Source of the DNA: an uncultured Flavobacteriaceae bacterium
GTDB lineage: Bacteria > Bacteroidota > Bacteroidia > Flavobacteriales > Flavobacteriaceae
Length of the DNA stretch: 64,000 bases
Reading direction: 5' to 3'
Assembly (NCBI GenBank): GCA_943787365.1
Contig: CALSMD010000005.1
Location: forward strand, 1-64,000
Every line of letters begins with the position of its first letter. Position 1 is the stretch's first letter. Under the pieces are notes generated by a model. The model had not been told where the DNA came from. It saw nothing but the letters and a program-made list of their open reading frames with translations, and did not search any database. The position numbers and the translations under genes were made by a program. Positions 38,287 to 62,700 of the stretch are shown here, piece by piece.

Positions 38287-38307
38287 CCTGCCTGTCGGCA
38301 GACAAGC
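38287..38307. repeat. Short palindromic element copy c
   Basis: cctgcctgtcggcagacaagc; first 18 nt identical to the insert in tRNA-Leu. Confidence 0.8.
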
Positions 38308-38368: not shown

Positions 38369-38409
38369 ATTCTGAAACAAACCTGCCTACCGTCAGGCAG
38401 GTTCAGAAT
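38369..38409. repeat. Short palindromic element copy d inside a longer inverted repeat
   Basis: attctgaa...cctgcctaccgtcaggcagg...ttcagaat; the 3' flank (gttcagaatgacagattttctactttttagacag) resembles the flank of copy b at 22983-23017. Confidence 0.75.
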
Positions 38410-39581: not shown

Positions 39582-39589
39582 AATAAAGG

Positions 39590-41932: not shown

Positions 41933-41987
41933 TTAGAGTATAAAAATACGCAAAAGCCAATACAGTTAGTATGTGTGTAACGATTTT

Positions 41988-42887
41988 TTACAAATCTTTA
42001 ACTAAATTTTTGATAGATTTAAAGAGTTTCATCCCTTTTGGGAGTTTTTTGGGTTTAGAATCTATAAAACGGGTTCCAAGGAGTCTTACCGAATTAGTAG
42101 TGTCTTTAACCACTTCAGTATACAGTTTTTTCAAATAACCTTCAACCTTTTCTGGGTCTGGTTTGATCGTGAAATAGGAAACGTATGTAATGTCTTCATA
42201 GATAGCATTAAGTAGATTGAGATCCTCAATTGGAACGCTTTCACCAAGATAGATGGTGTGATATCCACGACTCAAAAGCTCGTAGTTTATAAACAGAAGT
42301 CCAATATCATGAATTTCGTTAAGTGGTAAAAACAACACAAAAGTTTTTGTGTCAGGTTTCGGGTTTGAACTTTGTATGCGCTCAATATGAATCAACACTT
42401 TTTGTCGAATATGAACAAAGAGAAAATGCTCATGCGAAGGTTTAATAGTAAGCGTTTGCCATAAAAAACCGATGTCTTGTATGATGGGAATAAAGAGCTC
42501 GTAAAAAATTTCACGAAAGCTTTTTTCTTCTAACAAGCGGTTATAAGTATTATAAAAAAGTGCTTGATCAAAATTTAGCATCGCCAGTTTAAAGGCGTTA
42601 AACGCATGCGTTTCCGTATTTCCTAAGTACGAAATCTCTTTTACTTTTGTTGCAATTTGAAACTCATCAAGTGCTGCAATTCTAGAGACTTTATAGCCAT
42701 TACTGTTTAAGAAACTAATGTTCATCAGCTTTTGTAAGCTTCTTAAATTGTAAGTTCTAATGTTGGTGTCTGTGCGTTCTGGCACGAGAAGATTGTACCG
42801 TTTTTCCCATATACGAATGGTATGGGCTTTGATTCCAGAAAGATTTTCTAAGTCCTTTATGCTAAAGGAGGTTTTAATTGTGTTCAT
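41988..42887 (-). CDS. MerR-family regulator with C-terminal B12-binding-like domain (CarH/LitR-like)
   Basis: SIKDLENLSGIKAHTIRIWEKRYNLLVPERTDTNIRTY (MerR HTH); FLWQTLTIKPSHEHF (W-x9-EH); LPLNEIHDIGLLF (E-x-H-x-x-G). Confidence 0.85.
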   Translation of the reverse strand: MNTIKTSFSIKDLENLSGIKAHTIRIWEKRYNLLVPERTDTNIRTYNLRSLQKLMNISFLNSNGYKVSRIAALDEFQIATKVKEISYLGNTETHAFNAFKLAMLNFDQALFYNTYNRLLEEKSFREIFYELFIPIIQDIGFLWQTLTIKPSHEHFLFVHIRQKVLIHIERIQSSNPKPDTKTFVLFLPLNEIHDIGLLFINYELLSRGYHTIYLGESVPIEDLNLLNAIYEDITYVSYFTIKPDPEKVEGYLKKLYTEVVKDTTNSVRLLGTRFIDSKPKKLPKGMKLFKSIKNLVKDL

Positions 42888-42903
42888 GTTTTAATAAGAT
42901 TTG

Positions 42904-42947: not shown

Positions 42948-42964
42948 ACTAAAAAATAATAAAG

Positions 42965-43069
42965 TGCGCACGAGAAGACTCGAACTTCCACGGGAATAAT
43001 TCCCACTAGCCCCTCAAGCTAGCGCGCCTGCCTGTCGGCAGACAGGTCTACAAATTCCGCCACCTGCGC
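42965..43069 (-). tRNA. tRNA-Leu(GAG) with 20-nt palindromic insertion in the D-arm; no encoded CCA
   Basis: Reverse complement GCGCAGG TG GCG GAATTTGTAGA [CCTGTCTGCCGACAGGCAGG] CGC G CTAGC TTGAGGG GCTAG TGGGAATTATTCCCG TGGAAGTTCGAGTCTTCT CGTGCGC A. Anticodon stem-loop, long variable arm and T-arm fit tRNA-Leu; acceptor has one mismatch. Confidence 0.85.
43027..43046. repeat. Short palindromic element copy e, inside tRNA-Leu
   Basis: cctgcctgtcggcagacagg; forms an 8-bp hairpin with tetraloop in the transcript; first 18 nt identical to copy c. Confidence 0.88.
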
Positions 43070-43124
43070 ATTATGAATGTTAAAATTGAGAGTTCGTGTC
43101 TCAGTTTTATATTTCGATTAAAAA

Positions 43125-43637
43125 TCATCCAAAACTCTTCAACAAAATCCTTGCTTGCAAATAAAACCGTCCCGTTCTGTAGTTTTTCTTTTTTTCAAAA
43201 TGAAGACTGATGACTTCCCCAAATTTAGTTTTTTGTTCTAATAAATATACAAGTTGATTGATGTTGTTATAAGTGCCTTCAAGGGTAAAGTCATATGTTT
43301 TAATTACCAGCTCATTATTTGTAGAGACGTGGGGCTCAAGAAAATCAACTACTTTTAGGGCGTTGTTGCTGGCATACGTATTGATGACTTTAAGAAGGTT
43401 GTTTTGAATCGAAGACCCGCCTAGCTGAAACTTTGTTAAGAGCGAATCATAATAAACATTTTTTTGTTTTAATACGGCTAATTGCTGCGGGCCGTTTTTG
43501 AGTAATACAGCTTCGTTTACTAAATTGGTGTGTTGTTCTTTTAGCTGAAGGGTGTTTTTAATGGCTAAATTATAGCAAAGAATCAATGCCATAACAAAAC
43601 TCACAATAAGGGCTATATTTTTCTGCTGTTTAGTCAT
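43125..43637 (-). CDS. GspM/PilO-like inner-membrane secretion protein
   Basis: Single N-terminal TM helix plus ~170 aa; downstream of the GspL-like gene in a secretin/ATPase/pseudopilin run. Confidence 0.55.
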   Translation of the reverse strand: MTKQQKNIALIVSFVMALILCYNLAIKNTLQLKEQHTNLVNEAVLLKNGPQQLAVLKQKNVYYDSLLTKFQLGGSSIQNNLLKVINTYASNNALKVVDFLEPHVSTNNELVIKTYDFTLEGTYNNINQLVYLLEQKTKFGEVISLHFEKKKNYRTGRFYLQARILLKSFG

Positions 43638-44832
43638 TTCTTATAAGGATAGAAATTTTAAATTCTGATTTTTTTGAACTCGTATTGCGATACTCTACAA
43701 TTGCAACTTTAGCAATCCACTCCATTTTTTCTAAGGTATTAATCCACTCTGAAAAATCAGTACTCTTGATGGAGGAGCCTGAAACGGATATAATATCTTC
43801 AGAGATTTCAACAGAAGTATCCTCTTTAATACGTCTTAATAAAGGTTGGTAATGATAGTCTGAAAGTAGTATTGTTTTGGGTAAACTTTGGGTAATAGTG
43901 TGACTGTAAAACGAGCTTTTAGATCCATTACTTTTTAGTAAATCATCTACCATTTTCTGTTTTTTAGAGACGGTTTCATTAAGTATAATAATTTGATTTT
44001 TGGTGACTTGATTTATTTCAGAAACTTGCTCCAATTCATTTACGCTATCGAAATAATGATTGAAAAAGAAAAAATTAATCAACAGCAATCCCAAAACAAA
44101 TAACCCTCCAAATTTTATAAATAGGTTAAAAAAACGTGTTTGTTTGTAACTATCTTCTAAGCGTCTTTTTTCTATTGAAAAGTTGGTATTTGTACTGATG
44201 TTTTTTAAAATAGGTTGGAGTGCTCCCGAAAAAGAGAGCAACTGATCATTGGATACACTAATGCCATTCACATCATAACTCTGTGAGACAACAGGCTCTT
44301 TTTCAATTTGTATGATGTCATCGTTTTCTAGTGTAATTTTAGCATTAGAACTGTAGATTGTTTTTTCATGTAAAAAACCGACAAGGTTGCTAAGAGAATG
44401 ATTTCCTAAGGATATATTGAGTATCAAAAGTTGATGTTTCGCATAGGTTTCTACAAGTGTATTTATATAATCTTTCCGACAGATATTTATAAAATGCGTG
44501 TTCTTTTGAGAGAGGACTTCAAAATAAAAATCTTCAAGATTGATGTTTGGGAATGCGCTATAAACTAATTTTAAAGCATCCGTTTGTTTGTTTTCAATTG
44601 TTTTAGAAAGCACTTTGTCATTATTTACGATCAAAACAATATGTTGGTGTTTCGATAGTTTTTTTGAGAGGCTTTCAACCGTATTCTCTTTAAAAGAAGC
44701 GCTGATGTTTAACTCTTTTTTAGATTGAAGAAGCACTGTTGCATTTAGAATTTCCGTCTGATTTTGGGTGCTGAGTTCAACCCCACAAAAGTGCTTTCCA
44801 TACTGTAGATATGTCCAAATGATATTTAGCAT
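43630..44832 (-). CDS. GspL/PilM-PilN-like protein
   Basis: Actin-like N-terminal region then TM (FGGLFVLGLLLINFFFFNHYFD) and periplasmic domain; gene order. Confidence 0.55.
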   Translation of the reverse strand: MLNIIWTYLQYGKHFCGVELSTQNQTEILNATVLLQSKKELNISASFKENTVESLSKKLSKHQHIVLIVNNDKVLSKTIENKQTDALKLVYSAFPNINLEDFYFEVLSQKNTHFINICRKDYINTLVETYAKHQLLILNISLGNHSLSNLVGFLHEKTIYSSNAKITLENDDIIQIEKEPVVSQSYDVNGISVSNDQLLSFSGALQPILKNISTNTNFSIEKRRLEDSYKQTRFFNLFIKFGGLFVLGLLLINFFFFNHYFDSVNELEQVSEINQVTKNQIIILNETVSKKQKMVDDLLKSNGSKSSFYSHTITQSLPKTILLSDYHYQPLLRRIKEDTSVEISEDIISVSGSSIKSTDFSEWINTLEKMEWIAKVAIVEYRNTSSKKSEFKISILIRND

Positions 44833-47036
44833 TAGTAAATAATGGTAGGTTTAATCAACACGGTTAATTTAGATTTACGACCTTCTCGTACCCGCTTGCT
44901 AAACAGCCATTTTATAATGGGGACTCTCGACAAAAAGGGAACTCCCGATCCTGAGTTATTGGTCCGTTGTTCTTCCAAACCTCCTAGAACGACAATGTCT
45001 TGATCTCTCACGCGAATAATGGAACTGAATTCTCGAGAGCTAATGTCTGGTGGTGCATCTTTTGAAATTCGACCTCTAAAACTGGACTGAATCACAAAAA
45101 TATCCAAGGTGACTTGTCCATCTCCTGAAACAATGGGTTTGATGGTGAGGCCCAATTCTGCTTCAATAGGCTGATAGTTCGTGATTTCAGAGGTTTGTGG
45201 ATTGTCATTACCATAAATATTACGTTGAGTGACGGCGTAATAGGAAGTTTGCCCATTTGAAAATCGGGCACGGTGACCATTTAAGGTAGAGAGTTTTGGT
45301 GTGGAACGTACCTTTAGATTCCCATTGGTTTCCATGGCTTTAATTGTTGCGAAAAAATTAGGAACTACTTTCCCTAAGTTAAAAGATCCAAAGCCGTCAA
45401 ACCCACCAATTACTTTATTAATAGTTTGTGCGCCTAAGGTAAGGTCTGTTTCTGGATAAATCCCTCCGCTGGTGGTTGTTGGCTCGTCTCCAATGCCCCA
45501 ACTAACTCCTGTTTCTACAATAGCATTTGTGTTGACCTCAATCATCATGACTTCAATTAAAATAACGGGGACAGGTTTGTCAATTTTAGTTATAAAATCT
45601 TTGAAGCGTTCAATGTTACTACTCGGACCATTGACATAAAAACTATTGAGTTCATAATCCACTTTAATGTCTAAATCTTTTTTGATTTCATCTGGAAGAA
45701 TGTTTACCAATGCTTCGGCTTTACTGCTATAATTACTAAAGGATTGATTCGAATTGGTATTCAGTTGTTGCTGGTTACGATTGCTGTAATTATCAATTTG
45801 GTTCGAATTAGAATTTGTGTTATTTCTTGAATTTGTGTTGGTATTTTGTACTTGACTTCTAGCGTTTCGACTGCTGCCGCGACTGCCGCCGCCGCTTGGG
45901 TCTGATAGCAATTCTACAGAACGGTGTTGTAAATGAATGATAGCAACTTCACGAACACTCAACTGGTTTTCGGTTCCAAAGAAATAAATGGTACCTTCTT
46001 TCTTGTAAGTAAAACGTTTGGAGCCTTTGGAGCTTTTTGCATTTGATGAGGCCCGTTGATTTTGGTTATTGAAATTTGAATTGTTAGGATTGTTAGAATT
46101 TGAAGTTTCGGAAGTTTGAGTCGTTTGTCCTTCAAAAATCTTGGTTAATAGAGCATCAAAAGAAATAGACTTGGCTTTAAAGGTCGCCATACCTGCTTGG
46201 TCTAAAGGCGTTGCGGTAAACACATCAATGTTGAGGGCATTGCCAATATCATTGATAATATCAGCAATGGATGTATTGACAAAATCAACTTCTAACAATT
46301 GTTTTTCTAAGTTTAACACATTAAAAAAGAAGTTAGAATTTCGAGATCTTGTAGGACGTTGGCTTGCTGGATTGGAGGCCGTAGCGCTTGGCGAATTATC
46401 TTCAAACACATAAAACCCATCTTTGGATTGTTCTACATATAAATTATTTGCAAAAGCCATATTCTCCATTGCAGCATCAAAAGGCGTTTGTTGAATATAA
46501 GCCGTCAATAATTTCGTTTCAAGACCTGGAGAGAATACTAAGTTTTTTCCAGTTTCATCCATAATGCGTTTAAAGACATCGTAAAGCGAGTCTCCTTTCG
46601 CATCGATAGAAATGGTCTGATTATTTGGGTTGTAGGTAATGGGGATCACCCGTTTTTCGGGAGCTTCGGGGGCTTCAAAATACTGTTTAATTGAAAGGAT
46701 GTTTCCTGTAAAATCAATGGTCAAGTTATACTCTTTACATAAAAATACCAGTAAATCTGCAACAGATACATCCGTAAAATTATTTGCAATACTAATTTGA
46801 TTCAGTTCTGGCGACACATTAATATTCACTTTATGCACATCTGAAACCGCTAACAAAAAATTAGCGAGCGTGATGTTGTCAACATTAATTTCCGTCTTTA
46901 CATTTTCGGTTAAACCATTCACCTCCGTCGATAGCAACTCCAATTGATTTTTTATATTTAAAATACGTTGATCTGGATTTTGCGCATGGATGAAACTGCA
47001 AATTAATAAGGCAACTATGGGGACTATTTTTTTCAT
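44832..47036 (-). CDS. gspD: Secretin (GspD/PilQ family) with Asn/Ser-rich linker
   Basis: VPVILIEVMMIEVNTNAIVETGVSWG ... LKVRSTPKLSTLNGHRARFSNGQTSYY ... IRVRDQDIVVLGGLEEQRTNNSGSGVPFLSRVPIIKWLFS. Confidence 0.92.
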   Translation of the reverse strand: MKKIVPIVALLICSFIHAQNPDQRILNIKNQLELLSTEVNGLTENVKTEINVDNITLANFLLAVSDVHKVNINVSPELNQISIANNFTDVSVADLLVFLCKEYNLTIDFTGNILSIKQYFEAPEAPEKRVIPITYNPNNQTISIDAKGDSLYDVFKRIMDETGKNLVFSPGLETKLLTAYIQQTPFDAAMENMAFANNLYVEQSKDGFYVFEDNSPSATASNPASQRPTRSRNSNFFFNVLNLEKQLLEVDFVNTSIADIINDIGNALNIDVFTATPLDQAGMATFKAKSISFDALLTKIFEGQTTQTSETSNSNNPNNSNFNNQNQRASSNAKSSKGSKRFTYKKEGTIYFFGTENQLSVREVAIIHLQHRSVELLSDPSGGGSRGSSRNARSQVQNTNTNSRNNTNSNSNQIDNYSNRNQQQLNTNSNQSFSNYSSKAEALVNILPDEIKKDLDIKVDYELNSFYVNGPSSNIERFKDFITKIDKPVPVILIEVMMIEVNTNAIVETGVSWGIGDEPTTTSGGIYPETDLTLGAQTINKVIGGFDGFGSFNLGKVVPNFFATIKAMETNGNLKVRSTPKLSTLNGHRARFSNGQTSYYAVTQRNIYGNDNPQTSEITNYQPIEAELGLTIKPIVSGDGQVTLDIFVIQSSFRGRISKDAPPDISSREFSSIIRVRDQDIVVLGGLEEQRTNNSGSGVPFLSRVPIIKWLFSKRVREGRKSKLTVLIKPTIIY

Positions 47037-47075
47037 TTTTTAGAGATTAAACTTAGGTAATGTCAACAGATGTAT

Positions 47076-48482
47076 TTAATTAGAGAGCAGGGTGTACACT
47101 TCGTCTATAGAAGTTACGCCTGCGACCACTAAGTCCAGTGCATTGTCTTTTAGGTTTTTAATATTATTTTTTGTGCTATAATCTTCAATTTCTAAGGTGT
47201 TCTGTTTGATGTGTTCGGTCAAGGCTTTTTGGATGGGTAAAATCTCGTAAATCGCACGTCTTCCTTGATAGCCTGTGTGGTAGCAGTCGTTACAGCCCTC
47301 CGCTTTGAAATGCGTTTTTAAGTTGTTGGGTATTTTAAAATCAGCAGGGAATAATTCGATTGAGATAGGGGCTTCTTTTTTACAAACGGGACATAGTTTC
47401 CGAACCAAGCGTTGTGCGACACTGACGTTTAAGGTGCTGGCGATTAGAAAGGATGGGATGCCCATATCAATTAATCTCGAAATCGTGGCCCAAGCCGAAT
47501 TGGTATGGATGGTGGACAGTACCAAATGCCCTGTCAGCGCGGCACGAATGGCCATGTTAGCGGTTTTCACATCTCGAATTTCTCCGACCATAATCACATC
47601 AGGATCCTGACGTAAAAAGGTTCTTAAAGTACTCGAAAAATCCAATCCAATACTTTCTTTAAGCTGCACTTGGTTGATGCCTTCTAGCGTATATTCTATC
47701 GGATCCTCAATGGTAAGAATGTTGGTTGTTTCGTCGTTCAGAAGCTTCAGGGTGGCATAGAGTGTTGTTGTTTTTCCAGAGCCTGTAGGGCCAGAAATTA
47801 AAATAATGCCGTTGGGTTTTTTCAGCGTTTCCGTATACAGTTTGAGTTCAGAGTCTGTAAACCCCAATTCACTTAAATTAATATGGGTCGCATCTTTACT
47901 TAAAATACGAAGCACAATTTTTTCGCCATGGAGCGTGGGTAAGGTGGACACCCGAATGTCAAATTCATCGCCATTGGCTTTGACCGTGATCCGCCCATCT
48001 TGGGGGAGGCGTTTTTCGGAAATATCTAAGTTTGCTTTTATTTTGAGCTTGTTAATAATCACGGGATACTCTTCTAAAGCAATGATAAACTGCTCTTTTA
48101 ATTTCCCGTCCAATCGGTAGCGGACCCGACACGAAAACTCATATGGTTCAAAATGAATATCACTACTTCCAATATCTTTAGCGGTCAAGAGTAGTTTTTC
48201 TAAAAAATCCGTACTGTAGTGCAGGTCTTCGTGGGTGTTGTCAGACTGTGGTCTAAAATTAACACTTAAATACTGTTGTATGTTTTCGGTAGAATCTTCA
48301 AGGAGTTGAATCTCTTTATTTAAAATGATTTGTAATTCCTGTGTCAAATGATCAGACACTTGATCGGATTTAAATGTCAAACTGCCATTGTGCGCTTCCA
48401 CAGGAATGATCCGATAATGGTAGGCTTGTGCACTCGAAATGAGTTGTGATAAATGGGTTTCTATGTGAAAATCGTCCTTCAA
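47076..48482 (-). CDS. gspE: Type II secretion / type IV pilus assembly ATPase (GspE family)
   Basis: GIILISGPTGSGKTTTLYATLKLL; LTIEDPIEYTLEGINQVQ; LRQDPDVIMVGEIRDVKTANMAIRAALTGHLVLSTIHTN; C-x2-C...C-x2-C zinc motif. Confidence 0.95.
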   Translation of the reverse strand: MKDDFHIETHLSQLISSAQAYHYRIIPVEAHNGSLTFKSDQVSDHLTQELQIILNKEIQLLEDSTENIQQYLSVNFRPQSDNTHEDLHYSTDFLEKLLLTAKDIGSSDIHFEPYEFSCRVRYRLDGKLKEQFIIALEEYPVIINKLKIKANLDISEKRLPQDGRITVKANGDEFDIRVSTLPTLHGEKIVLRILSKDATHINLSELGFTDSELKLYTETLKKPNGIILISGPTGSGKTTTLYATLKLLNDETTNILTIEDPIEYTLEGINQVQLKESIGLDFSSTLRTFLRQDPDVIMVGEIRDVKTANMAIRAALTGHLVLSTIHTNSAWATISRLIDMGIPSFLIASTLNVSVAQRLVRKLCPVCKKEAPISIELFPADFKIPNNLKTHFKAEGCNDCYHTGYQGRRAIYEILPIQKALTEHIKQNTLEIEDYSTKNNIKNLKDNALDLVVAGVTSIDEVYTLLSN

Positions 48483-48483
48483 A

Positions 48484-48960
48484 TTATAGGGTATAAACAG
48501 GGGTTAAAAATCCCATCCAATGGGCAGCATAAGCGAGTGCAAAAAACACACTCATATAGCCGGCTAGGGGCACGGATTCTGATTTGGATTTTTTTAGAAC
48601 CAGATGTAAAAGCAACGAACCTACCAATCCAAACACAAAGACAATCATAAAAGTCAGTGGGGCAAAACCAAATGCCAGCGCGACAAAAAACAGTCCATCG
48701 CCCAAACCAAATGTGTCGGATAATTTCATTTTTAGTTTATAAGTTGCATACAAAAAAATCACGCCCAACAACAGACCAATAAACACCAAGTTGAGTAGGA
48801 TGGTTTCCAAAAAAAATCCCGCTGAGGTTTCCTGAAAAAAGAGGATTCCAGCGCAAATGCCAATGGCTGGAAACAAAAACCAATACACAGAGCGGTCTTT
48901 CAAATCCTGATAGGTCACGCTCACAAAAGCACTCAATAAGATTAGTTTTAGCACACTCAT
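48484..48960 (-). CDS. Prepilin peptidase (A24 family, short form)
   Basis: TYQDLKDRSVYW and FGLGDGLFF (GxGD) catalytic Asp motifs; polytopic. Confidence 0.82.
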   Translation of the reverse strand: MSVLKLILLSAFVSVTYQDLKDRSVYWFLFPAIGICAGILFFQETSAGFFLETILLNLVFIGLLLGVIFLYATYKLKMKLSDTFGLGDGLFFVALAFGFAPLTFMIVFVFGLVGSLLLHLVLKKSKSESVPLAGYMSVFFALAYAAHWMGFLTPVYTL

Positions 48961-48961
48961 T

Positions 48962-49423
48962 TTAGTCTTTTACGGTTTGTTTTGGTTTTCCATTTTCGTC
49001 AATTTCCCACACATTAAACACTCCATCGCCGTCAAAATCTGTAATCGCAGTCGCACGGGCTTTGAATTGGTGGTTGGTGGCACTTATAATTTCATAGCGG
49101 TAATTGGAGGTCCCCTCTTCTTTAACCGTTTTTGGGGCTTCAAAATCTATGGCTTCTAAGTCCATTGAATATTTTGAATTCATATAACGGTAGGTGGTCT
49201 GTGAATTGTAGAGGTGACTTAACTGGAGTTGTGCTTCCACACTTTTGGCTTTGCTAATGAGGGGCATCAAGTTGGGCAGTGCCAACAGCAGTAAAATCCC
49301 AATAATGACAAGCACAATGAGGATTTCTTGGAGATTATAAGCAGGCAGTTTTTTCATCTTTTTGGGGATTAATGAGAAACAATGGGCTAAATATATATAA
49401 AATTTTAATAACAACTTGCTCAA
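48962..49423 (-). CDS. GspG-like pseudopilin
   Basis: MKKLPAYNLQEILIVLVIIGILLLLALPNLMPLISKAKSVEAQLQLSHLYNSQTTYRYMNSKYSMDL; class III prepilin signal with Glu+5; start probably at an internal ATG (49367 or 49358). Confidence 0.85.
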   Translation of the reverse strand: MSKLLLKFYIYLAHCFSLIPKKMKKLPAYNLQEILIVLVIIGILLLLALPNLMPLISKAKSVEAQLQLSHLYNSQTTYRYMNSKYSMDLEAIDFEAPKTVKEEGTSNYRYEIISATNHQFKARATAITDFDGDGVFNVWEIDENGKPKQTVKD

Positions 49424-49718
49424 TAAATGAAGATCATATAAAATTCTGGTCAGTAATAGTCACTTAAGCCCATGAAGTCATACTATTTATTGCTGGTGTA
49501 ATTTACGGAGTAAAAAACGTTTAGCTATGAAAAATAAGTAGTAGCAAACTTTTTTATACACCCAGCTTTACATTTTGTCAAATCATTTTTTAGGATATAT
49601 TACAATTAATTTAAATTTAGCAACTAATTAGTGTTAAATATATGTTAAAATAAAAAACTTCCATTATTTTCATTAAGTTTATTTATAGTTTTAGGGTGCC
49701 TTAAAACCTATTAAAGTT

Positions 49719-50252
49719 ATGAATAAACTCGTCTTCCCTGTAGCCATTGCTGCACTTTTAATCAGCATTGGATCCTTTTTTTATTTACAATCGTCCTCCA
49801 ACCAAGTGTATGTGGATGTCAATAAATTATTGGATGGGTACAAACGCACCAAAATAGTACGTGCTCAATTTGAAGAAAAAGCCAAAACGCTCAATGCCAA
49901 TGTGGACAGCCTGCTCGTGGACTGGCAAAATGAATTGAAAATCTACGAAAAAGAACGTTCCAAAATGAGTAAAAAAGAACTGGAACTCAAGCAGGAATTG
50001 TTGGGCAATAAACAACAACAGATTAATAACTACCAACAAGCCATTCAAAAACAAATTCAAGAAGAGGACAAGAAAGCCACGCAAACCGTCATCAATGATA
50101 TTAATGACTATGTGAAGGACTATGGTAAACAGCAAGGGCATCAAATTATTTTTGGCGCCAGTGGCAGTGGAAATATCATGTATGCCAACGAAGCCTCCGA
50201 TTTAACCCAAACCGTTTTAGACGGTTTAAATGCGGAGTTTGAAGGTCAATAA
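49719..50252 (+). CDS. OmpH/Skp family chaperone-like protein
   Basis: Signal anchor, 'VYVDVNKLLDGYKRTKIVRAQFEEKAKTLNANVDSL', long coiled coil, 'QIIFGASGSGNIMYANEASDLTQTVLDGLN'. Confidence 0.85.
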   Translation: MNKLVFPVAIAALLISIGSFFYLQSSSNQVYVDVNKLLDGYKRTKIVRAQFEEKAKTLNANVDSLLVDWQNELKIYEKERSKMSKKELELKQELLGNKQQQINNYQQAIQKQIQEEDKKATQTVINDINDYVKDYGKQQGHQIIFGASGSGNIMYANEASDLTQTVLDGLNAEFEGQ

Positions 50253-50380
50253 AAAACTTAAATACAACAGAACTAAATACTATTTATTATGAACCATCCC
50301 TATCTAAAACTTGATACTAAAGAGAATTATTGAAATGGATGCAACATATGACAGATAAACAACAATAAATTATATACATT

Positions 50381-51517
50381 ATGAAAAATCAAATTTTATT
50401 TATCACACTAATTGGATTGAGTTTTGGAATAAAGGCTCAAAATACTTTTCCAACAAACGGAAATGTTGGGATAGGGACAACAAATCCAACTCAGAAATTA
50501 GATGTCTCAGGCGATGCTTTGATTAACGGCTTAACTGTTGGCAGAGGAAATAGACACATACATTCAAACACGGTAATCGGTATCGCTGCCTTAAACTCAA
50601 ACACTACAGGGTTTTGTAATACAGTTATAGGCAATAAAGCTCTTATCTTAAATACAGAAGGTTATTTTAATATAGCGACTGGTTATGGTGCTCTTAGGTC
50701 AAACACAACAGGATTTTCTAATACGGCTATAGGTGCGGTTTCTCTTAAATTGAATACGGGCGGTTATTATAATGTTGCCGCAGGCTATCAATCACTTAGT
50801 TCAAACACGATAGGATCTTTTAATACAGCAAATGGTGTATCTGCTCTGGTCTCGAATATTGACGGGCATTCAAATACGGGATCGGGCTATCGATCCCTTT
50901 ACAAAAATACAAACGGTCATAATAATTCAGCGTTTGGTTCGTGGGCTGGCAGTTTCAGAGGAGCAACAGGTACATCATCTAACTTGACGGGTTCTAATAA
51001 TTTATATTTAGGCGCTTTAGCTAGAGCCTCTGCATCAGGGTTAGATAATGAAATTGTCATTGGTTTTAATGCACTTGGGAATGGCAATAATTCAGTCGTT
51101 TTAGGGAATGACAAAATAGTCACAACCGTACTGAAGGGCAACGTTGGTATCGGCACTAACACCCCCGATTCTGGCTATAAATTAACCGTCAAGGGCAATA
51201 TATCTACAAGAGAGGTAAAAGTCACAGCGACCGCAGGTGGTGCAGATTTTGTTTTTGAAGACACGTATAAGTTACCAACATTAAAAACAGTTGAGCAGTT
51301 TATTACTAAAAATAAACATTTACCAGAAATAGCATCGGCTAAAGAAATGGAAGAAAACGGGATTCATCTTGCAGAAATGAACATTAAACTCCTCCAAAAA
51401 ATCGAAGAACTCACTCTTTACACCATTCAACAACAAAAAGAGTTAGAAGCCCAACACCAAAAAAACAAAACCTTAGAAGCGCGATTGGAAGCTTTGGAAG
51501 TCCATCTAAAAAATTAA
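50381..51517 (+). CDS. YadA-head-like / tail-fibre-domain surface protein
   Basis: NVGIGTTNPTQKLDVSGDALINGL; repeats 'LNSNTTGFCNTVIGNKAL'; C-terminal 'TLKTVEQFITKNKHLPEIASAKEMEENGIHLAEMNIKLLQKIEELTLYTI' plus coiled coil. Confidence 0.8.
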   Translation: MKNQILFITLIGLSFGIKAQNTFPTNGNVGIGTTNPTQKLDVSGDALINGLTVGRGNRHIHSNTVIGIAALNSNTTGFCNTVIGNKALILNTEGYFNIATGYGALRSNTTGFSNTAIGAVSLKLNTGGYYNVAAGYQSLSSNTIGSFNTANGVSALVSNIDGHSNTGSGYRSLYKNTNGHNNSAFGSWAGSFRGATGTSSNLTGSNNLYLGALARASASGLDNEIVIGFNALGNGNNSVVLGNDKIVTTVLKGNVGIGTNTPDSGYKLTVKGNISTREVKVTATAGGADFVFEDTYKLPTLKTVEQFITKNKHLPEIASAKEMEENGIHLAEMNIKLLQKIEELTLYTIQQQKELEAQHQKNKTLEARLEALEVHLKN

Positions 51518-51523
51518 ATAATT

Positions 51524-52186
51524 ATGATAAAATCACTTTTTGTTTTAATGATTCTATGCCTCACAGTTCAGGGGCAGGCACAGGAAACCGATGCCTCTCA
51601 ACTGGTGAAGCTCCTACATCAAACCGATATGGACTCTAGGTTGGAGTTCTTACAACAATTCCAATCCGCAGAGCCTTCTGAGAAAATGAAAGACAGTACC
51701 GCTTTAGCAAAGTCGCTTTACACAGGTATTGAAGCCGTCTATCAAAAACAATTCACCCCAAAGGAGTTGAAAGGCTTGTATGCCTTTTACAGCAGCCCAT
51801 TGGGAACAAAACTCCTACAGCAACAAGCCCAACTCCATAGCGAGGTTTCAACCGTGGCTTATAAGTGGGAGATGGAACAACAAGGCATCACTATTGAAGA
51901 CCTCGAAACACCAATTTTCAACGATAAAGAGGACGAACTCATGGAGCCGAATGCTGAGACCATTGCAGAAGAAGTCGCCCCAAAAGTGGAAAAAATTCCG
52001 CTGCCAAAAATCGCAACTTTAGACGATTTAAAATCCTTGTTGCGTAAAGATCCCTTTATCATCGCGGATCAGAACATATTACTCGCATTGTTCGGGAAAA
52101 AAGAACTGGACGCTGTGTTTGAACAACTGATGGAAGAACAGGGAGCTGAGCTAATGGAAGAAGAGGAAATAGAACCAAAACAATAA
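51524..52186 (+). CDS. DUF2059-like secreted protein
   Basis: Signal peptide; 'FTPKELKGLYAFYSSPLGTKLLQQQAQL'. Confidence 0.6.
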   Translation: MIKSLFVLMILCLTVQGQAQETDASQLVKLLHQTDMDSRLEFLQQFQSAEPSEKMKDSTALAKSLYTGIEAVYQKQFTPKELKGLYAFYSSPLGTKLLQQQAQLHSEVSTVAYKWEMEQQGITIEDLETPIFNDKEDELMEPNAETIAEEVAPKVEKIPLPKIATLDDLKSLLRKDPFIIADQNILLALFGKKELDAVFEQLMEEQGAELMEEEEIEPKQ

Positions 52187-52198
52187 GGAATCAAACGG

Positions 52199-52825
52199 AT
52201 GGCTAAAAAACACCGCTTTCAAAAAATGCTTACCCTAAGTTTTTTAGGAGCGCTCCTCATCGGGTGTCAAGGTCATAAAACGTTTGAGAACGAAGACGAT
52301 TTACTCATGTACATACAAGACGAACAAAACGGTTACACACAACACAAAACGATCAATGGCGTCGAATACACGCTCTTGTACCGTCCTACCGATTTGTTGG
52401 TCAAACAAGAATTAGGCGATGCGTCGGCAACAGAAACTCAAGTGCAAACATCCAGAGAAAAATACAATAAGTACCTCTATTTCAATTTAAGCATGAGCAA
52501 AAACAACCAGGAATTGTTGAGTGTTGCGCCCAAAAACCAAAATGAATTTGGAGCCATGGTCAACCAATTGGCGTTTGGAATGCAAGACAAGGTACACCTG
52601 TTTACAGCACAGAAAGACACCATTGAACTGGCGGATTATATCTATCCACGGATGTATGGAATGAGCCGCGCCACCACCATGATGTTTGTGTATCCAAGAG
52701 AGGCCGACAAACTAAACCAAGACTACCTCAACTTCACCATTGAGGATTTGGGCTTATACACAGGCGAAGTGAAGTTTAAAATAGCGACTCAAACATTAAA
52801 AAATGAACCGACCTTAAAATTGTAA
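52199..52825 (+). CDS. Hypothetical lipoprotein
   Basis: LSFLGALLIGCQGHK lipobox. Confidence 0.6.
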   Translation: MAKKHRFQKMLTLSFLGALLIGCQGHKTFENEDDLLMYIQDEQNGYTQHKTINGVEYTLLYRPTDLLVKQELGDASATETQVQTSREKYNKYLYFNLSMSKNNQELLSVAPKNQNEFGAMVNQLAFGMQDKVHLFTAQKDTIELADYIYPRMYGMSRATTMMFVYPREADKLNQDYLNFTIEDLGLYTGEVKFKIATQTLKNEPTLKL

Positions 52826-52836
52826 GGGCATAGCAA

Positions 52837-53490
52837 ATGAATATAAAACCAAACATCCAAATCTTAAGAAGCCTCCTACTGGGAGTTGCACTGCTTTTTT
52901 GCACTGCAACCCTGAACGCGCAACGCTCAGAAGCCATTTTAACGTTTAAGGATGGAACGGTTAAAAAAGGCTTTGGGAAATTAATTTCTCAGGACCGAGT
53001 GAAGTTCAGAAAAAACAAGAAATCCAAAGCTAAAAAGTACCCTTTTAAAAACCTAAAGCATGTGAAAATCAAGGAATACGACGAATTTCAGACCTATGCC
53101 TATATCCGCATACAAAACAAAAAGAAACCACGTGTTTTGGAAGTTAAAGTCACTGGGAATTTAAGTCTCTATGAACTGAGCAGAACCTACCACAATTTTG
53201 GAGGCGGTTTTGGCGGCGCAGGCGGCTTTGGTGGCGGTGGGGCGTCTGTTGGTCTTACATTTGGGCACAGCTATAATATCAATAATTTTTACGTCCGTAA
53301 AGAAGGCCAAAAAGAAGCCACCCATTTGGGTTCCAACCAATTGTTTAGCAAAAACTTTAAAAAGGCGGCTTCCGCTTATTTTAAAGACTGCCCCAGTTTG
53401 GTAAAAAAAATACAGTCCCGAACCTTTAAAAAAAGGGACCTCGAAAAAATAGTATCCTATTACAATAACAAATGCACCCAAAAAGAATGA
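52837..53490 (+). CDS. Hypothetical secreted protein with Gly-rich segment
   Basis: Signal peptide ending LNAQ; 'NFGGGFGGAGGFGGGGASVG'. Confidence 0.6.
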   Translation: MNIKPNIQILRSLLLGVALLFCTATLNAQRSEAILTFKDGTVKKGFGKLISQDRVKFRKNKKSKAKKYPFKNLKHVKIKEYDEFQTYAYIRIQNKKKPRVLEVKVTGNLSLYELSRTYHNFGGGFGGAGGFGGGGASVGLTFGHSYNINNFYVRKEGQKEATHLGSNQLFSKNFKKAASAYFKDCPSLVKKIQSRTFKKRDLEKIVSYYNNKCTQKE

Positions 53491-53495
53491 CACTT

Positions 53496-56400
53496 ATGAA
53501 CTTCCTACCCTTAAATCGATTAAAAACCTACAGCCTCCGTTTCGCCCTACTCGTATTGGCATTTCAAATGAGTGCATGCGCAAGGGCCTAATGCGCCAGA
53601 AGCATGCTCGTTTTGAACCTGTTGATGCCACGGATATGGTGAGTTTAGTAACTGGCGATGTAAGTTATGTACTACCCTTATTAAATGTGCCATCCCAGAA
53701 GGGGGCTATCCCATAGCATTAGCATACCATGCAGGATTAGCATATGGATCAAGAAGCCTCTTGGGTTGGTTTGGGGTGGAATTAAATCCTGGAGCTATCA
53801 ATAGAACGTGTAATGGGTATCCAGATGATTGGAACGGTGGAAGCATTAGGAATAGAAATTATTATAAATATGAAGTAGAGACTATTACGATTTCTTTAGG
53901 AGTGGGAGAGAAAGTAGAAGCAGAGATTGGTGTGGGATATTCCTGGGATTCAAATGGGTCTCAAAGTGGTTCAGTAAGTTTATCAATTACTAATAATGAA
54001 ACGGGTGCTGGGGCACAGGTAGGAGTAGGCTATAGTTCTTCTGAGGGATGGAGCGCAAATGCAGGAGTATCATTAAGCAAAAATTTAGGAGGTTCTGGAG
54101 GTAGTATTGGTGTATCAGGTAGCACAAACGGAAATGTTAATGGCTATATAGGTTATGGAAACAGTGATAACTCTATAGGAGTTTCTTTTGGTACCGCTGG
54201 GTTAGTAGTTAATGCCAATGCTTCAGGAATTGGCAAAGCAAGTTATGCATCTAATAATTCTGTTTCAGCTGATGTAACGTCATTAGATGTAAGTATAAAA
54301 ATACCTATTGCTCCTAGCACATTTATTAAATTAGGCTATTCTAAAGTTAAGTTTGAAAAAGATGAAACTTATTTTAATAAAGTATGGGGTCCATTAAATT
54401 ATAAAAATTTAAATGATTCTCCAAAATATGCAGATGATATTACTTATCAAAATCTTATCACTAATGAGCATAATAGAGATTTTTATATGGATACTTATGA
54501 TCAACCTTTACCTGAAACTGAAAAAGAAATTATTTCTTTTAAAGATACCTTTGAAAAATACCAACATTCCTTTTCAAATCCTGCCTATGACAGTTACATT
54601 GTAAATGCTCAAGGTTTATCAGGGAGTATGAAACCAAGGCTTCTAGAAAATGCTTATCTTATAGGCAAAGGATATAAATTAGAGTATGATACAGAGGAAA
54701 AAGGTAGTATTTCTGGAGTTAACTTAGTTAGAGCAATTGCTGTAGATGTTATAGAAAATAATAATATAGAACTTGCTGCTTTTGCATTAACTCAATCAGG
54801 GGGACTGTCCAATTTTTTAAGTGGACCATCTTTTTATAGTACATTTGAAAAGAGAAGTGCTATTGTAAATCATCATTTTGATTCTTCTAAGCGATTTGAT
54901 AAAAAGTTTGGAAACGCACGGAATGATATACATTTTTATTTTGATCATCAATTACACTCTAACCTCTTAATAAATATAAACAGCATAAATCATAACACGC
55001 CTTCTAGTGCAACAAGCATCAACCAATTTTTTAGTGGAATACATGTTAATAGAACAGGTAGAGAAGAAAATACAAATTTCATAGAATCGTTCACTAATAA
55101 AGAGATTAAAGAGCTGATAAATTCTAATGGGTACTTTTTTGAATCTAAAAATTTTAATAGACAAAATCAATTTGGTGCAAAAGATTATGGTATAGGCGGT
55201 TACAGAATAACTACTGCTGATGGAAAAACATACCACTACTCCCAACCTGTCTATCAATATGAAGAATTTTATCGACAGCTAACTCCTAAAGCAGATTCTG
55301 ACACTAATAATCCTGAAAATTTCTCCGAACATAAATTTTATCATGAACAACGAAAAACTGAGCCTTATGCAACCCACTGGCTGTTAACGGCTATTACAGG
55401 GCCAGATTATGTAAAACGTAGTGCAAATAATATTCGTTATCCTTCAGTAAATGACTACGGTTATTGGGTGCGTTTTGATTATGGGGCTTGGACTGATGGT
55501 TTTGTGTGGCGTACACCCAAAGAACAAAAAACCTATAATAATCTTGTTTTTGATAAAACTAATGCCACAAATAATTACTCTTGGGGTAGAAAACAACTAG
55601 TTTATCTTAATAAAGTAGTTACAAGATCTCATACAGCATTATTTGTAAAATCTATAAGAGAAGATAGTGAAAGCGCTCAAATTGGATACCTTAATTCAGG
55701 ACCGTTTACGATTGATAAATTCCCGTCTTACGAAGGTGATGATTATGTTTATTATCCGAAACAAAAATCTTTAAAACTAGATGAAATTATATTAGTCAAA
55801 AATAAAGATGACAATACAAATACAAATAATTTTGCAGGTGATTTGGTAAGTAACCCAAATTCTACAGTTAACGTTTCATGGAATACCATGTCTGATATTA
55901 GCTATGGAGTTAACAATCAAAATAATGTTTTAGATAATTTGGATTTAATAAAAAACTCAGAAGGTAACTATGTTATTTACGACAAAGCTGTAAAGGTTAT
56001 TAAATTACAACAAGATTATACACTTGCAAAAGATACTAATACAAACCAAGGTCGTTTAACGTTAAATAGTGTAGATTTTCTAGCAAAAACTGCTTCAAAA
56101 ATCATGCCTGCGTATAATTTTAATTATATAGATGAAAATACTAAATATGAATATTGTGAAGATTATGAAAATTGTGATAAAGACGCCTGGGGTTATCATA
56201 AAAATAAGACGGATTTATGGAGCTTAAATAGCATTAAAACCCCTTTAGGGAGTGAAATAAAAATAGAATATGAAGAAGACGACTATTATACAGAGGCTTT
56301 TTCTAGACGTTTTTGGACTGAGGGGTTAACTTTTAAAGTTGAAAATTATAATGATGATGAATATAAAATCACCGTTAGAAACAGCCCTGAATATGTAGAG

Positions 56401-59400
56401 GATGCACAAATTGATGATTTTTCGGATTATTTTGAAATGGGTCAAAAAGTATCTATAGATTTATGGATATCACGAAGAAAAAATTGTATTGAATGGTTTG
56501 ATCAAAAAAAGTACATTGCAGCTTTTGATTTAAACCCAAGGATATTAGCAGATGAGTTTTATCCCGAAGTTATAATTGCAAATAGTGAAAATTTAATTGT
56601 TAAAGTTAGTAAGAGAGTTAATTATGGGGATTTATTAAATCGTCCCAATATTAGAGGGACTAGTTTTGAACCTGGTCTACTATTAAAAAATGAATTTTGG
56701 AAACATAATAATTGTCCTGTAACTCATTACTATGATGCAAAAAAAAGAGGTGAGTCTCCTGCTTATGTTAGTCCTGGCGTAAGTGGTTGTTCTGATCATC
56801 ATTCAATGTATATTGGATTAATAGCCAATAAAACACCTGTTGCCGATTCTGGAGGAGGTATTCGTGCAAAATCTATAGCAACTTATTCTAATACTGGAGA
56901 ATTCTTCAAGGTAGCTTACAATTATGATCATCCAACAATGGAAAGGTCTTCGGGAATAACTTCATATGCACCAGTAAGGGGTTATAAATATGTAGCTTAT
57001 CAATCAGAATTACCAGGTCCAAAAGTTAATTATGAATATGTTACAATGTCTCAAGTTGGAGAAGATGGAAGCTCTTTAGGTAGTACTCAATATCATTTTG
57101 ATGTTTTAAAACCTGCAGTAAATATTTTTAGTAAAAGTTTAAACATTGGAAATCATTTTAAGTCTGAAGTTGTTGAGCATGATTTACCAAGAAAGACATT
57201 AGGTGCTGATGTGAAGTTATATGACAATACCGCTATGATAGGTAGTTTGTTAGAGGTTTCAGAATTTAATTCTAAAGGGCATTTAATTAGGCAAAAAACA
57301 AATAATTATAAAAATTTCACAGAGTTAGCTAATTCGAATAATGGTAGTATTCAAGAGTCTTTTTTATCCATGAAGTCTATACATGATTTTCACGCTCTTT
57401 ATGTAAAAGTTCCTTTTAATTATGGGATTCAAAGTCCTGATGGTTCGGCAGGAATTAATGTGAAGTTAACTAAAAACATATATTTTGAATCATTATCAAA
57501 TTTAAATACAAAAAAAAGATTTGCAAATGTTTCCACAAAAATAACGTATCCATTAATACAAAAATCTAATACGATTATTCAAAACGGTTTCAAAACAACA
57601 AATGAATTTTTTAACCCAGACCCCAAAACAGGAGACTTTTTAAATACACGAACTACACTCGCTAACGGTACAACGATAGAAAATATAAAGATTCCTGCTT
57701 ACACAAAATATCCAGATATGGGCTCCAAAGTGGATCGAGTCACCAATAGAAACATGCTCACCCAAGAAGCCATGAATATCACCAAATCTGGAAACTTAAT
57801 CACGAATGCAACAATTACCACTTGGAATCCTAATTGGATTTATACAGATGCAATTGGAAACACAAGTACACAAAACGGGGTATGGCGGAAACACAAAACC
57901 TTTGTTTGGGAGGGGAGTATAGGTTCTTCTGGCTCCTACTTTGGATTTGTTGGAGAAGATGATCATTTTAATTGGGGCGTCGCCGCTGCGGGTTCTGAAA
58001 CGGTGCAATCCAATCCAAAATGGAAAAACACCTCTACAGTCACAAAATACACCCATTGGTCATCGCCTATAGAAACGCGTGATATTAACAACAATTTTGC
58101 GGCCTCAAAAATGGCAGACGATTTTACTAAAGTCATTGCAACTGGGAACGCCCGTCAATCGGAGCTGTTTTACAGTGGAGCCGAGTACAACCCTTCAGGG
58201 AACTATACAGAAGGTGCCATTTTAGGAGCCAATTACCGCAGTCAAGACGCAGCGCATACAGGAAACTGGAGTTTAAAAACCACATCGAGTTCAAACAAAC
58301 TTTTTGAAATCAATAAAGCGGTCAGTTCAAGATTGTCAACCAACGCGATGCGCCCAGGCAATTACAGGGTTTCTTATTGGGTTAAAGACCCTCAAACTAC
58401 AGGAATTACGTCAAGTCGATCGCATTTAATGGTGAATGGCGTTGAGGTTTTCGTGTCCGAGACTGTAACTGCAGGTTGTTGGAAGCAATTTAATTATACG
58501 ATTACAATTCCAGTCACGAGTACAGCAGTTAACATTTATGTAAAAAATGACCACTCAAATGTGTATTACGACGATTTCAGAATGCATCCTATCTATGCCT
58601 CTATGAGCAGCTATGTGTACAACCAAGACACCGATGAATTGGTGGCTATTTTAGGAGCTAACAATATGGCTTCTGTATTTTGTTATGACAAGGCAGGACG
58701 ATTGTGTGCGTCTTATGCCGAAGCCGTGAATGGAGATACCCATATTGGAGGTTTTAAGGTCGTAAGCCAAAATAAATATAATTATGCCGACGGAACCTCC
58801 AATTATTTAGGCTGTGAGTGTGTGATTGATAGGTGTGGCGAACAGGTAAATCATGAACCTTTAAAAGTTTTATCCGTAGATAATATTTGTACCGCTGGCT
58901 TAAGAAGGGAGTATGAAGCCAATGTTACGGGAGGGTCTGGGAATTATAAATATGAATGGAGTTGGTTAATTAATGCTGAAGAGGGACAATATACAAACTT
59001 TATTGAAGGAAACCGATCAATGTTAGTGCCTTATGCTGTCAAAAAGTGTGATACCGAAAACAATAAATTTAACAGAGTATGGAAAGCAAGAGTTAAAGTT
59101 ACAGATCAAGTTACAGCTGAGGTGGCTAATTCATCTGGTGGTGTAACTTTTTCAGGGTGTAATTTATATATTGATGAAAATTATTGGTATGATTTAGAAG
59201 TCACAAAATGCCTCAAAAATTGTAGTAATTCAGACTATACGTTCAAAGTTCATACAAGAGACCCAAATATGTCTGGAAACTTTAAGTACGAATATATTTA
59301 TTACAATCCAATTACTAAAACTAATTCAGATTGGATTGACGTCACAGCAAGTGATGGTGAATTCTGTCCTCAAATTTTCAACAGAGAATGGTCAAATTGC

Positions 59401-59661
59401 GCAAGTGGTTATGTTAAAAATGTAACTTTAGGAATTAGAATCACAAATTTATCTACAGGTCAAGTTTCGGGAACATCGGGGCCAGCGTACTCTGTTTATT
59501 TGGGTTGTAGTGATGTTCCGCCAAGTCCACAGTATAGGGTTCTTCCAAATTATGTGGGTAAAGAAAAAAATTACATTAATGAGGATACAATTATAGAGAT
59601 AGACTCTGAAGGCGAAGTTATTTCTGTTCGTAGTATTAATGGTGAAAATTTAAAACAATGA
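53496..59661 (+). CDS. Large RHS/YD-associated surface protein; N-terminus broken by about five apparent single-base indels (53580-53790)
   Basis: Piecing frames gives '..APEACSFEPVDATDMVSLVTGDVSYVLPLLNVPSPEGGYPIALAYHAGLAMDQEASWVGLGWNLNPGAINRTCNGYPDDW', typical of flavobacterial RHS-associated proteins; long ORF from 53761. Confidence 0.75.
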
Positions 59662-59777
59662 TAGCCCAAATGAAATCAAAAGAATCACATACAATTCTGA
59701 GAGAATCCCTAAGAGATGATTTGGACCATTCAATTATTTTTATACGAAACGTTGACATTATTAAAAGATAAGGAATC

Positions 59778-62700
59778 ATGAGAAAATTATTTATAACATT
59801 ATCAGTATTATTAGTCACCAACATAACATGGGCTCAAGAAAATGCCCCCTCCCCATCTGACGATCTCAACTGGGTGAGCAGCATTCGTTATGATTTTGGT
59901 GGACAAACTATTGCTAAAAGTGTCAACTACTTTAACACTTTAGGGAAAAGCACTCAAAGTCAGAGTTGGGACATTACTACTAAAAAAATATGGAACTCAG
60001 AAACCCGTTATGACTACCATGGACGTGCAGCCTTGCAAACGCTCAGTGCACCCATAGGAAACAGCTTTCGCTACCAGCCAAACTTTATTAGAAAAAGCAA
60101 TAACGGCACCTATACGCTATCAGATTTTGAAGCCAATCCACTGAACCCAACAGCCATTGGAACCGCTTCAAACACTTTAGGCGCCTATTACAGCACATCA
60201 AACTCAACAGAACCCTACCAAGACGTCACCAGCTACCCGTTTAGCCGTACCGTTTTTAGCAAACTCAATCCGGGAGCGGTCAAAGCCGTGGTAGGCGGCA
60301 ACAAAACCGACACCAATAATGATGGCGTCATCAACCACTTAGATAAATGGCTGCAAACCTATAGTTTTTCAATGCCAGCCCCCGGTCAAAGTAGAGGCGT
60401 CAGTAAAACCGTGAGTCGGGATGTGCATGGTATAGAAGTCGTTGTCTTTACAGATGCCGAAGGCAACACCTCCAAAGCCGCTCGATCTGGCGATGAAGAA
60501 GGCGTAAAACCAAAAACCACCGTCAACAGTCTCATAAAAGAATTAGGCTATGTGGATGTTCATATTCCAACGGGCTGTTCTGGAGTGTCTGTGTCTAACG
60601 ATCCAGGAGGGCATCAATTGGTAATTTATGATTTAATTACAGAAAAACCGGTGTATACTTCTTGGCACACATTACCAAGTGGTTTTTATCGTTTTTCAGT
60701 CCAAACCACAGTAGGACCGCCATATGAATACGATGCATCAAAACCTATTGGGATTAGACACCAAATCAATTATTACGACTTTACCACCAATACGTATGAC
60801 AGAGCTGGACGACTCTTGCGCAGCACACAGCCAAACGGGACCGATCTATTAAGTAAATTTAGATACAACAGCTTGGGACAACTCTTAGAAACCACCTCTC
60901 CCGATGAAGGCAAAGCACAATTCAAATACCGCAAAGACGGACAAATCCGTTATTCTCAAAACAGCAAGCAAAAAGGACCCAGGCCCTTTTTAGAGAGTAA
61001 TTTCAATTCAGTTATAGAATCTTGGGGGTGGGATGTTAATGGAAATGCCACTGTAAGTTTAGAGAATGGGCGGGTAAAAGTCAATGTTATGACCGCCTAC
61101 CAAGGCGTGAAACACCAACTAAACGGATTAAAAACCACCGCAGGAAACACCCTAAAAGTCAACATAATTTTTGATAAAGGAACCACCCAATCCAATGTAA
61201 GACTGTACCTTCAGGAAAACACGCCCAGCGGAACCTTAGTAAGCTACAACGTACTAGATAATAATCTACAAACCGGAACACACCAGTACAGTCACAGCAT
61301 GACCACTACTGGGAATACCCTCCAACTACGGATTGATAAAGCAAATACCTTTCTAAGCAATGCTACCTATTTCTATCTCGACTTTGTGAGCTTAGCCCCC
61401 GATACAGGCACATCGGAAGAATATTCCTACACCAATTACGACCCCTTAGGACGTCCCGTTGAAAGTGGCGTTGCCATTGGTGCTTTTAGCAATCTTGACC
61501 CCGAGGTGGAAGCTCTGCCATCTGGAACAAAAAAAGAACAGCACTTTACGCAATATGACATTCCTGATTCTGGTTTAGAAGTAGTACTTAGAAATGCAGG
61601 GATTTATTATAGAAAACAAAATTTTGTTGCTGGAAATGTGAGTAAAACATGGACCCAAAACCCAAATACCAACACCACTTGGTACAGCTACGATGTTTAT
61701 GGTCGGGTGGAGTGGCTCATACAAAACGTAGAAGGCTTAGGAGTCAAAACCATTGATTATGAGTACGATTTTGCCCGTGGGCAGGTCACAAAGGTAGAGT
61801 ATCAGAAATCAAAACCTGATGAAAGCTTTATACACCGCTATACCTACAACCCAGCAGGGCAACTCACCCAAGTAGAAACTTCTACAGATAGCAGCAACTA
61901 TACCGTACAAGCCACCTACGAATACTACGAAACTGGTGCCTTAAAACGCACCGAACTTGCCGACGGAATTCAAGGCACCGACTATGTGTACAACCTCAAT
62001 GGGCAACTCAAATCCATCAACCACCCTGCACTGTCCGCCGCCAAAGACCCCGGGCAGGATGCCAACGACCTGTTTGGAATGCAAATTGACTACCATGCAT
62101 TTGACTACGCCCGAACCCAGCGCAGCAACATCACCACCGCCGCAGTAGGTACCAACCAATACAATGGAAACATCAAAAACACCCGTTGGAACACTTCTGG
62201 GAGTTTGCCAACCCCCAGAGAACACGTGTACAGTTACACCTACAACAAAAACAACTGGCTCGCCGGTGCCAATTTTTCTGCTACCGACAACACTCCCTCA
62301 CCATTTCCGCCAGACATTATATCCACAGCCATCACAAACGCCGGGCAAACCCTTAACCTAAAAGCCACCAACAGCATCACCTTAAAACCAGGATTCCATG
62401 CCAAAACAGGCAGTATATTCTCCGCAAAAATAGTAGAAGCCCCCCTCATCATCCCCGAAGGAGATTACGATGTCAGCAACATCACTTACGATGCCAATGG
62501 CAACATCCAAACCCTCAACAGAAATGGCTATACCGGTGGTGGCAGCAACGCCATGGACAACTTCTCCTACAACTATAAACCAAAAACCAACCAACTCACC
62601 ACCGTCACCGATACCAATGACAACCCTGATTCCGACCGCTACAGCGATTTAAAATCGCAAGGCAGCAGTGCCACCAACAACTACAGCTACAACAGCATCG

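Follow-up and report, generated by a model that had tools for sequence, protein, structure and literature searches.

A tRNA-Leu(GAG) copy interrupted by a 20-nt palindrome in an uncultured flavobacterium, and its likeness to displaced tRNA copies beside small GIY-YIG genes

The window analysed here is the 64,000-nt stretch that opens contig C5 of an uncultured Flavobacteriaceae bacterium (genome G000; 2.30 Mb in 8 contigs, 88.8% complete, 7.5% contaminated). On its minus strand, at 43069..42965, lies a tRNA-Leu(GAG) copy which, as the initial annotation had claimed and the sequence confirms, carries a 20-nt palindromic insert in its D-arm, between nucleotides 21 and 22 of the D-loop. The features of the window are:

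38287..38306, plus strand: second copy of the palindrome, with 1 mismatch; intergenic, also found in the sister genome G010
38382..38401, plus strand: CCTGCCTACCGTCAGGCAGG, a variant palindrome seated within a hairpin loop (TTCTGAA..TTCAGAA)
41988..42887, minus strand: MerR-like HTH gene, which ancestrally followed tRNA-Lys/tRNA-Leu(GAG) in this genus
43069..42965, minus strand: interrupted tRNA-Leu(GAG) copy, 105 nt (Rfam RF00005); its 3' 62 nt equal the intact gene
43027..43046, minus strand: the palindromic insert itself, CCTGTCTGCCGACAGGCAGG (20 nt), at D-loop position 21|22
43052, minus strand: G18U substitution, conserved G18 lost (alignment of 18 genus tRNA-Leu(GAG) genes)
43064, minus strand: C6G substitution, acceptor pair 6-67 broken (same alignment, and fold)
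43070..43084, minus strand: upstream segment TTTAACATTCATAAT, common with the intact locus and part of the duplicated block
43085..64000, strand not assigned: left part of a 33-kb block (which runs to C5:76167), with type IV pilus/T2SS genes

Read on the tRNA strand (window 43046..43027), CCTGTCTGCCGACAGGCAGG forms the 8-bp hairpin with one U-G pair and a CCGA loop that had been described. When aligned with the 17 other tRNA-Leu(GAG) genes of the genus, the insert is exactly 20 nt long, with a placement ambiguous by 1 nt and no target duplication. The reported loss of the conserved G18 is borne out by the alignment of these genes, as G18U. The remainder had been taken for a normal-looking tRNA-Leu, which holds for the anticodon arm, the variable arm and the T-arm, but overlooks C6G, which breaks acceptor pair 6-67. 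All three lesions (the insert, C6G and G18U) fall within the first 23 nt of the copy, whose final 62 nt do not differ from the intact tRNA-Leu(GAG) gene. Rfam scores 43069..42965 (minus) as a tRNA with a long D-loop insert at 33 bits, against a cut-off of 29 bits and 52-73 bits for the remaining full-length tRNAs of the genome. ARAGORN does not call the interrupted gene, yet calls Leu(gag) once the 20-mer is deleted in silico. In the predicted fold of the interrupted copy the palindrome stays a hairpin, the acceptor stem is shortened, and the D- and T-arms are not formed.

A second tRNA-Leu(GAG), which the initial annotation had advised looking for, is present on the same contig 33 kb away (C5:76178-76262), intact and beside tRNA-Lys(UUU). 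Across the other members of the genus for which this locus was retrieved, the genes run tRNA-Lys, tRNA-Leu(GAG), in most of them with the MerR-like gene directly next. When window 38441-43084 is aligned with genomes G003 and G006, the match carries straight on into C5:76168 and beyond; in G000 and G010 a block of ~33 kb, which G003 and G006 lack here, sits between two tRNA-Leu(GAG) copies. The window copy has kept the ancestral downstream sequence and has foreign sequence upstream; the intact copy has kept the ancestral upstream sequence together with tRNA-Lys. Comparison of these genomes thus indicates that insertion of a 33-kb type IV pilus/T2SS block at tRNA-Leu(GAG) gave rise to the duplication of the tRNA. 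Among the block ORFs scanned (window 43125-49423 and C5:60000-76167) were PilN, a secretin, T2SSE, T2SSF and a pilin-like protein; the block also holds very large ORFs and one Y1 (IS200-like) transposase.

Sister genome G010 has both tRNA copies intact, and these are among the 17 other tRNA-Leu(GAG) genes of the genus, all 17 of which are free of the 20 nt and so provide a precise empty site. The 17 genes are identical over the tRNA, save for the variable arm of one genome, and among all 18 the insert, C6G and G18U are found in the window copy only. Since both copies are intact in G010, the palindrome is best seen as a later, lineage-specific hit on a redundant gene; the notion that it was carried in with the 33-kb block is rejected, as G010 has the block along with intact tRNA copies. 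What this establishes for the window is that the spare tRNA-Leu(GAG), which remained next to the MerR-like gene, was inactivated by a palindrome and two substitutions.

The palindrome belongs to a dispersed family with a consensus of roughly CCTGYCTNNCGNNAGRCAGG (20 nt). The window holds three members, against 0 in 100 shuffles at up to 3 mismatches. G000 holds 16 sites, against 0 for a reversed control pattern that likewise found 0 matches in 300 family genomes. At no more than 1 mismatch to the window variant, the palindrome occurs in 64 of 301 family genomes; a literature search for the 20-mer string returned no match. Within G000, a longer hairpin repeat, TTCTGAA..TTTCAGAA, encloses most copies in its loop, and 40 copies sampled from nine genomes were located in hairpins, in simple repeats and in the centre of another copy, with 4 of the 40 in tRNA-Leu 5' fragments, where they match the window copy in D-loop site and orientation. 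The palindrome can therefore insert without a tRNA, and its unbiased sites lie mostly outside tRNAs. We also observed that it often sits in the exact centre of another copy, CCTGCCTGC|CGGCAGGCAGG (loci L199, L200, L201, L203, L227, L228 and L230). A general preference for hairpin loops is unconvincing as a rule, with stems of at least 6 at 3 of 29 non-tRNA copies vs 2% of controls.

The initial annotation had likened the insert to the mobile palindromic elements found inside genes of Rickettsia. It was right in kind, given an interspersed 20-mer family and an empty site, but the Rickettsia comparison is not the best one. Rickettsia palindromic elements are ~100-150 nt long and are read through within genes. 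The window palindrome resembles them as a short interspersed palindrome inside a gene; it differs in being 20 nt long, in disabling its gene, and in being tied to tRNA copies and GIY-YIG genes, and where the Rickettsia elements are tolerated in frame in protein-coding genes, it lies in a tRNA pseudogene. With its many dispersed, near-identical copies and a precise empty site, the palindrome behaves as a REP-like mobile palindrome would; REP families are tagged GTAG or CGTC (PMC3733652). The likeness to REP/RAYT and IS200-like (Y1) systems extends to multi-copy 20-nt extragenic palindromes with Y1 transposase genes in the same genomes; the present palindromes depart from them in self-nesting, in inserting into tRNA loops and in having no constant GTAG or CGTC tag in the flanks examined, and their link to Y1 is putative.

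We then turned to palindrome-interrupted tRNAs in other bacteria. A scan of 85,462 species genomes for this palindrome 15-45 nt before a T-loop reported 80 loci (82 stretches), of which at least 52, the window included, proved on reading their contexts to have a proper anticodon arm and T-arm. Inserts are concentrated where the D-loop ends (21|22) and at either anticodon-loop junction, and the hosts include Patescibacteria, Bacteroidota and Ignavibacteria, with one isolate, Halpernia humi DSM 21580, which has a tRNA-Arg(TCG) cassette. In 9 of 14 genomes with such an interrupted tRNA, an intact copy of the same tRNA, 96-100% identical, lies on the same contig and strand ~0.1-1.7 kb off; the remaining 5 had no intact partner tRNA at the threshold used. 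The two copies, intact and interrupted, flank a small ORF of the GIY-YIG type, and such an ORF occurs within 1 kb at 37 of the 80 loci, mostly within 200 bp. Palindrome-interrupted tRNA copies beside small GIY-YIG genes are the closest relatives of the window arrangement.

The same arrangement is found in the family. Leaving the window locus aside, an intact tRNA-Leu(CAA) stands alongside 22 of 23 palindrome loci at the tRNA-Leu D-loop site, with a GIY-YIG ORF between in 20 of the 23. The nucleases are ~85 aa long, a bare GIY-YIG domain, and conserve the Y, R and E that an active domain should have; one member matches PF01541 at 52 bits (cut-off 22.6), and the nuclease profile finds UPF0213 proteins and, in PDB, the catalytic domain of I-TevI (1mk0). 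A palindrome-independent sample was obtained by searching 201 family genomes with the nuclease profile alone. It yielded 29 loci, at 28 of which an intact tRNA stands no more than 180 bp from the nuclease domain, always on the same strand. On the displaced-tRNA side, that is, away from the intact tRNA, the palindrome type of the window occurs in 16 of 29 loci vs 0 of 1681 control windows drawn from the same loci, and a looser palindrome motif in 22 of 29 vs 10 of 1681. At corresponding tRNA positions, other displaced sides carry different hairpins, those of tRNA-Ala and tRNA-Arg(ACG) being instances, and the palindromes of displaced tRNAs beside GIY-YIG genes are of several unrelated sequences; generic hairpin strength does not discriminate these sides from controls (8 of 29 above the 95% control level).

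Several nuclease loci are tandem arrays of 2-3 units with an intact tRNA at the end. In G010 (C1:1215154-1217000; L282, L285, L286), a 391-bp unit is repeated ~5 times after an intact tRNA-Met(CAT), and every unit pairs a GIY-YIG ORF with a 3' copy of tRNA-Met in which a different palindrome, CCCCCGATAACTATCGGGG, takes the place of the anticodon loop. Given the profile-only sample, the other hairpins and this array, we take a palindrome in the displaced tRNA copy to be a regular feature of the cassettes. Some loci vary the pattern: in L323 (1402-1424) the displaced tRNA-Leu(CAA) copy of a nuclease locus has its hairpin in the T-arm rather than in the D-loop or anticodon loop, and in L220, L216, L292 and L296 displaced tRNA-Leu 5' fragments carry two palindromes, before and after GCGGAATTGGTAGA. 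In G000 itself, a 58-nt tRNA-Met 3' fragment (C6:387592-387649, L072) lies ~4 kb downstream of a tRNA-Met(CAT) gene and is possibly a relic of this type of cassette.

The cassettes recall GIY-YIG homing endonuclease elements, which include I-TevI, the free-standing Seg-type nucleases of phages and fungal mitochondrial inserts, the last of which duplicate part of their host gene. Like these, the cassettes consist of a small nuclease gene parked at a single position in a conserved gene, with part of that gene duplicated and its function thereby restored, and they re-insert in tandem at the intact target. Unlike these, they reside in tRNA genes of cellular bacteria and involve no intron, their displaced tRNA carries a palindrome at the D-loop or an anticodon-loop junction, and their nuclease, a putative cutter, is a bare domain of ~85 aa; the window copy differs further in being without a nuclease gene. 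Our literature search, with subscription journals mostly outside it, found no description of palindrome/GIY-YIG/tRNA cassettes in bacteria, and as far as can be told they are an undescribed variant of GIY-YIG homing elements. We are evenly divided on a broader proposal: that these are a class of selfish cassettes, hitherto undescribed and widespread in Bacteroidota, Patescibacteria and others, in which a minimal GIY-YIG gene occupies a tRNA gene and the displaced copy is disarmed, made immune and kept out of use as a tRNA by a palindrome at the cut site, the window tRNA being a hairpin-only scar of such a cassette.

The window copy bears the cassette mark: its palindrome lies at exactly the 21|22 site and in the same orientation as in the tRNA-Leu cassettes, and an intact copy of the same tRNA is present elsewhere in the genome. 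Its variant of the 20-mer accounts for 17 of the 25 exact-site matches in the family, but for only 2 of the 16 palindrome sites in G000. These matches of position and variant indicate that the window palindrome is the mark that many tRNA-resident GIY-YIG cassettes carry in the displaced tRNA. C5 1-79.5 kb, which takes in the whole window, contains no GIY-YIG gene, either within a few hundred bp of the copy or farther off, and neither G000, an assembly only 89% complete, nor G010 yielded a tRNA-Leu-type cassette that could have served as donor. The 23 nt around the site, GTGGCGGAATTGGTAGACGCGCT, are identical in the tRNA-Leu(CAA) and tRNA-Leu(GAG) of G000.

We thus arrived at a model in which a GIY-YIG nuclease of the tRNA-Leu(CAA) type would cut tRNA-Leu D-arms at or near 21|22, and would have cut the spare tRNA-Leu(GAG) copy by way of GTGGCGGAATTGGTAGACGCGCT, which it shares with tRNA-Leu(CAA). 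The break would have been repaired from the displaced fragment of a cassette and, because that fragment is homologous on both sides of its hairpin, the hairpin alone would have been copied in. By destroying the target the hairpin would render this copy immune to further cutting, with the intact tRNA-Leu(GAG) 33 kb away supplying the tRNA. Such cutting and repair at a cassette target site is the most likely source of the hairpin, and independent palindrome insertion the next. The C6G and G18U substitutions are not accounted for by the cassettes seen, which counts against a cassette explanation, as do the lack of a GIY-YIG gene or donor cassette in the stretches and genomes just named and the many palindrome sites outside tRNAs.

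The main rival to cut-and-repair is that the palindrome entered a redundant gene independently: a REP-like palindrome that inserts itself in hairpin loops, for instance by an HUH/Y1 transposase, would have chanced on the spare tRNA, and the nuclease cassettes would be separate entities that merely attract the palindrome too. It accords with the many copies in hairpin loops or another copy's centre, with most genus and family copies lying outside tRNAs, and with the genomic distribution, as IS200-like Y1_Tnp genes number 6 each in G000 and G010 and 0 in G003 and G006, and palindromes 10 in G000, 17 in G010 and 0-1 in other genus members. It does not explain why the exact 21|22 position, the orientation and the variant are common to the tRNA-Leu cassettes of other genera, or why unrelated palindromes occupy displaced tRNAs beside GIY-YIG genes, and flanking stems at its other sites are near background (3 of 29). 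We regard it as possible, though rather doubtful.

A scar of an attachment site, by which the 33-kb block would be an integrative element that used tRNA-Leu(GAG) and left the palindrome on integration, appears improbable. Direct tRNA copies do bound the block, as duplicated tRNAs do at the ends of inserted blocks at tRNA attachment sites, and G003 and G006 offer empty sites, but here the whole tRNA and ~15 nt upstream are duplicated, and no integrase was seen among the scanned ORFs of the block. Palindromes are not known as part of the tRNA attachment sites of integrative elements. This reading is largely refuted by G010, in which the same block lies between two intact tRNA copies, placing the palindrome later.

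That the 105-nt tRNA is in use, its extra D-arm helix being tolerated or trimmed by the cell, one of two options that the initial annotation had offered, is more improbable still. The unchanged 3' 62 nt, the normal anticodon-arm, variable-arm and T-arm sequences and an Rfam score that is still that of a tRNA speak for it. Against it, the copy lacks an intact acceptor stem (G6-G67) and a D-arm with G18G19 (G18U and the 20-nt insert), in a gene otherwise invariant in the genus but for one variable arm; its minimum-energy fold is without D- and T-arms; the original upstream region with tRNA-Lys went with the other copy; and Leu(TAG) probably reads the same codons too. Nor is it the sole isoacceptor: the idea that it is the only functional tRNA of its kind is rejected, since an intact, identical tRNA-Leu(GAG) is on the same contig. 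The other option offered, a decaying copy, is strongly favoured by that isoacceptor, the broken acceptor stem and the uninterrupted sister copy; as a redundant gene with three lesions, the window copy is very probably a pseudogene. Least credible of all is an assembly artefact: the genome is of metagenome-bin quality, but the site is mid-contig in an 8-contig assembly, and many independent assemblies, that of the isolate H. humi among them, show the same palindrome at the corresponding position of a tRNA.

Taken together, we lean slightly towards a history in which insertion of the block left a redundant tRNA copy that was later hit by a cassette-derived palindrome and two substitutions. The feature in the window, taken by itself, is a modest pseudogene. 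Few genes are as constrained as those of tRNAs, and a minimal nuclease appears to inhabit them repeatedly across phyla, with the tRNA duplicated and the old copy marked by a hairpin. If the proposed cut site and immunity are true, they would account for interrupted tRNA genes and fragments that annotation tools miss or miscall, and would offer a simple case of palindromic repeats spreading through nuclease-driven repair.
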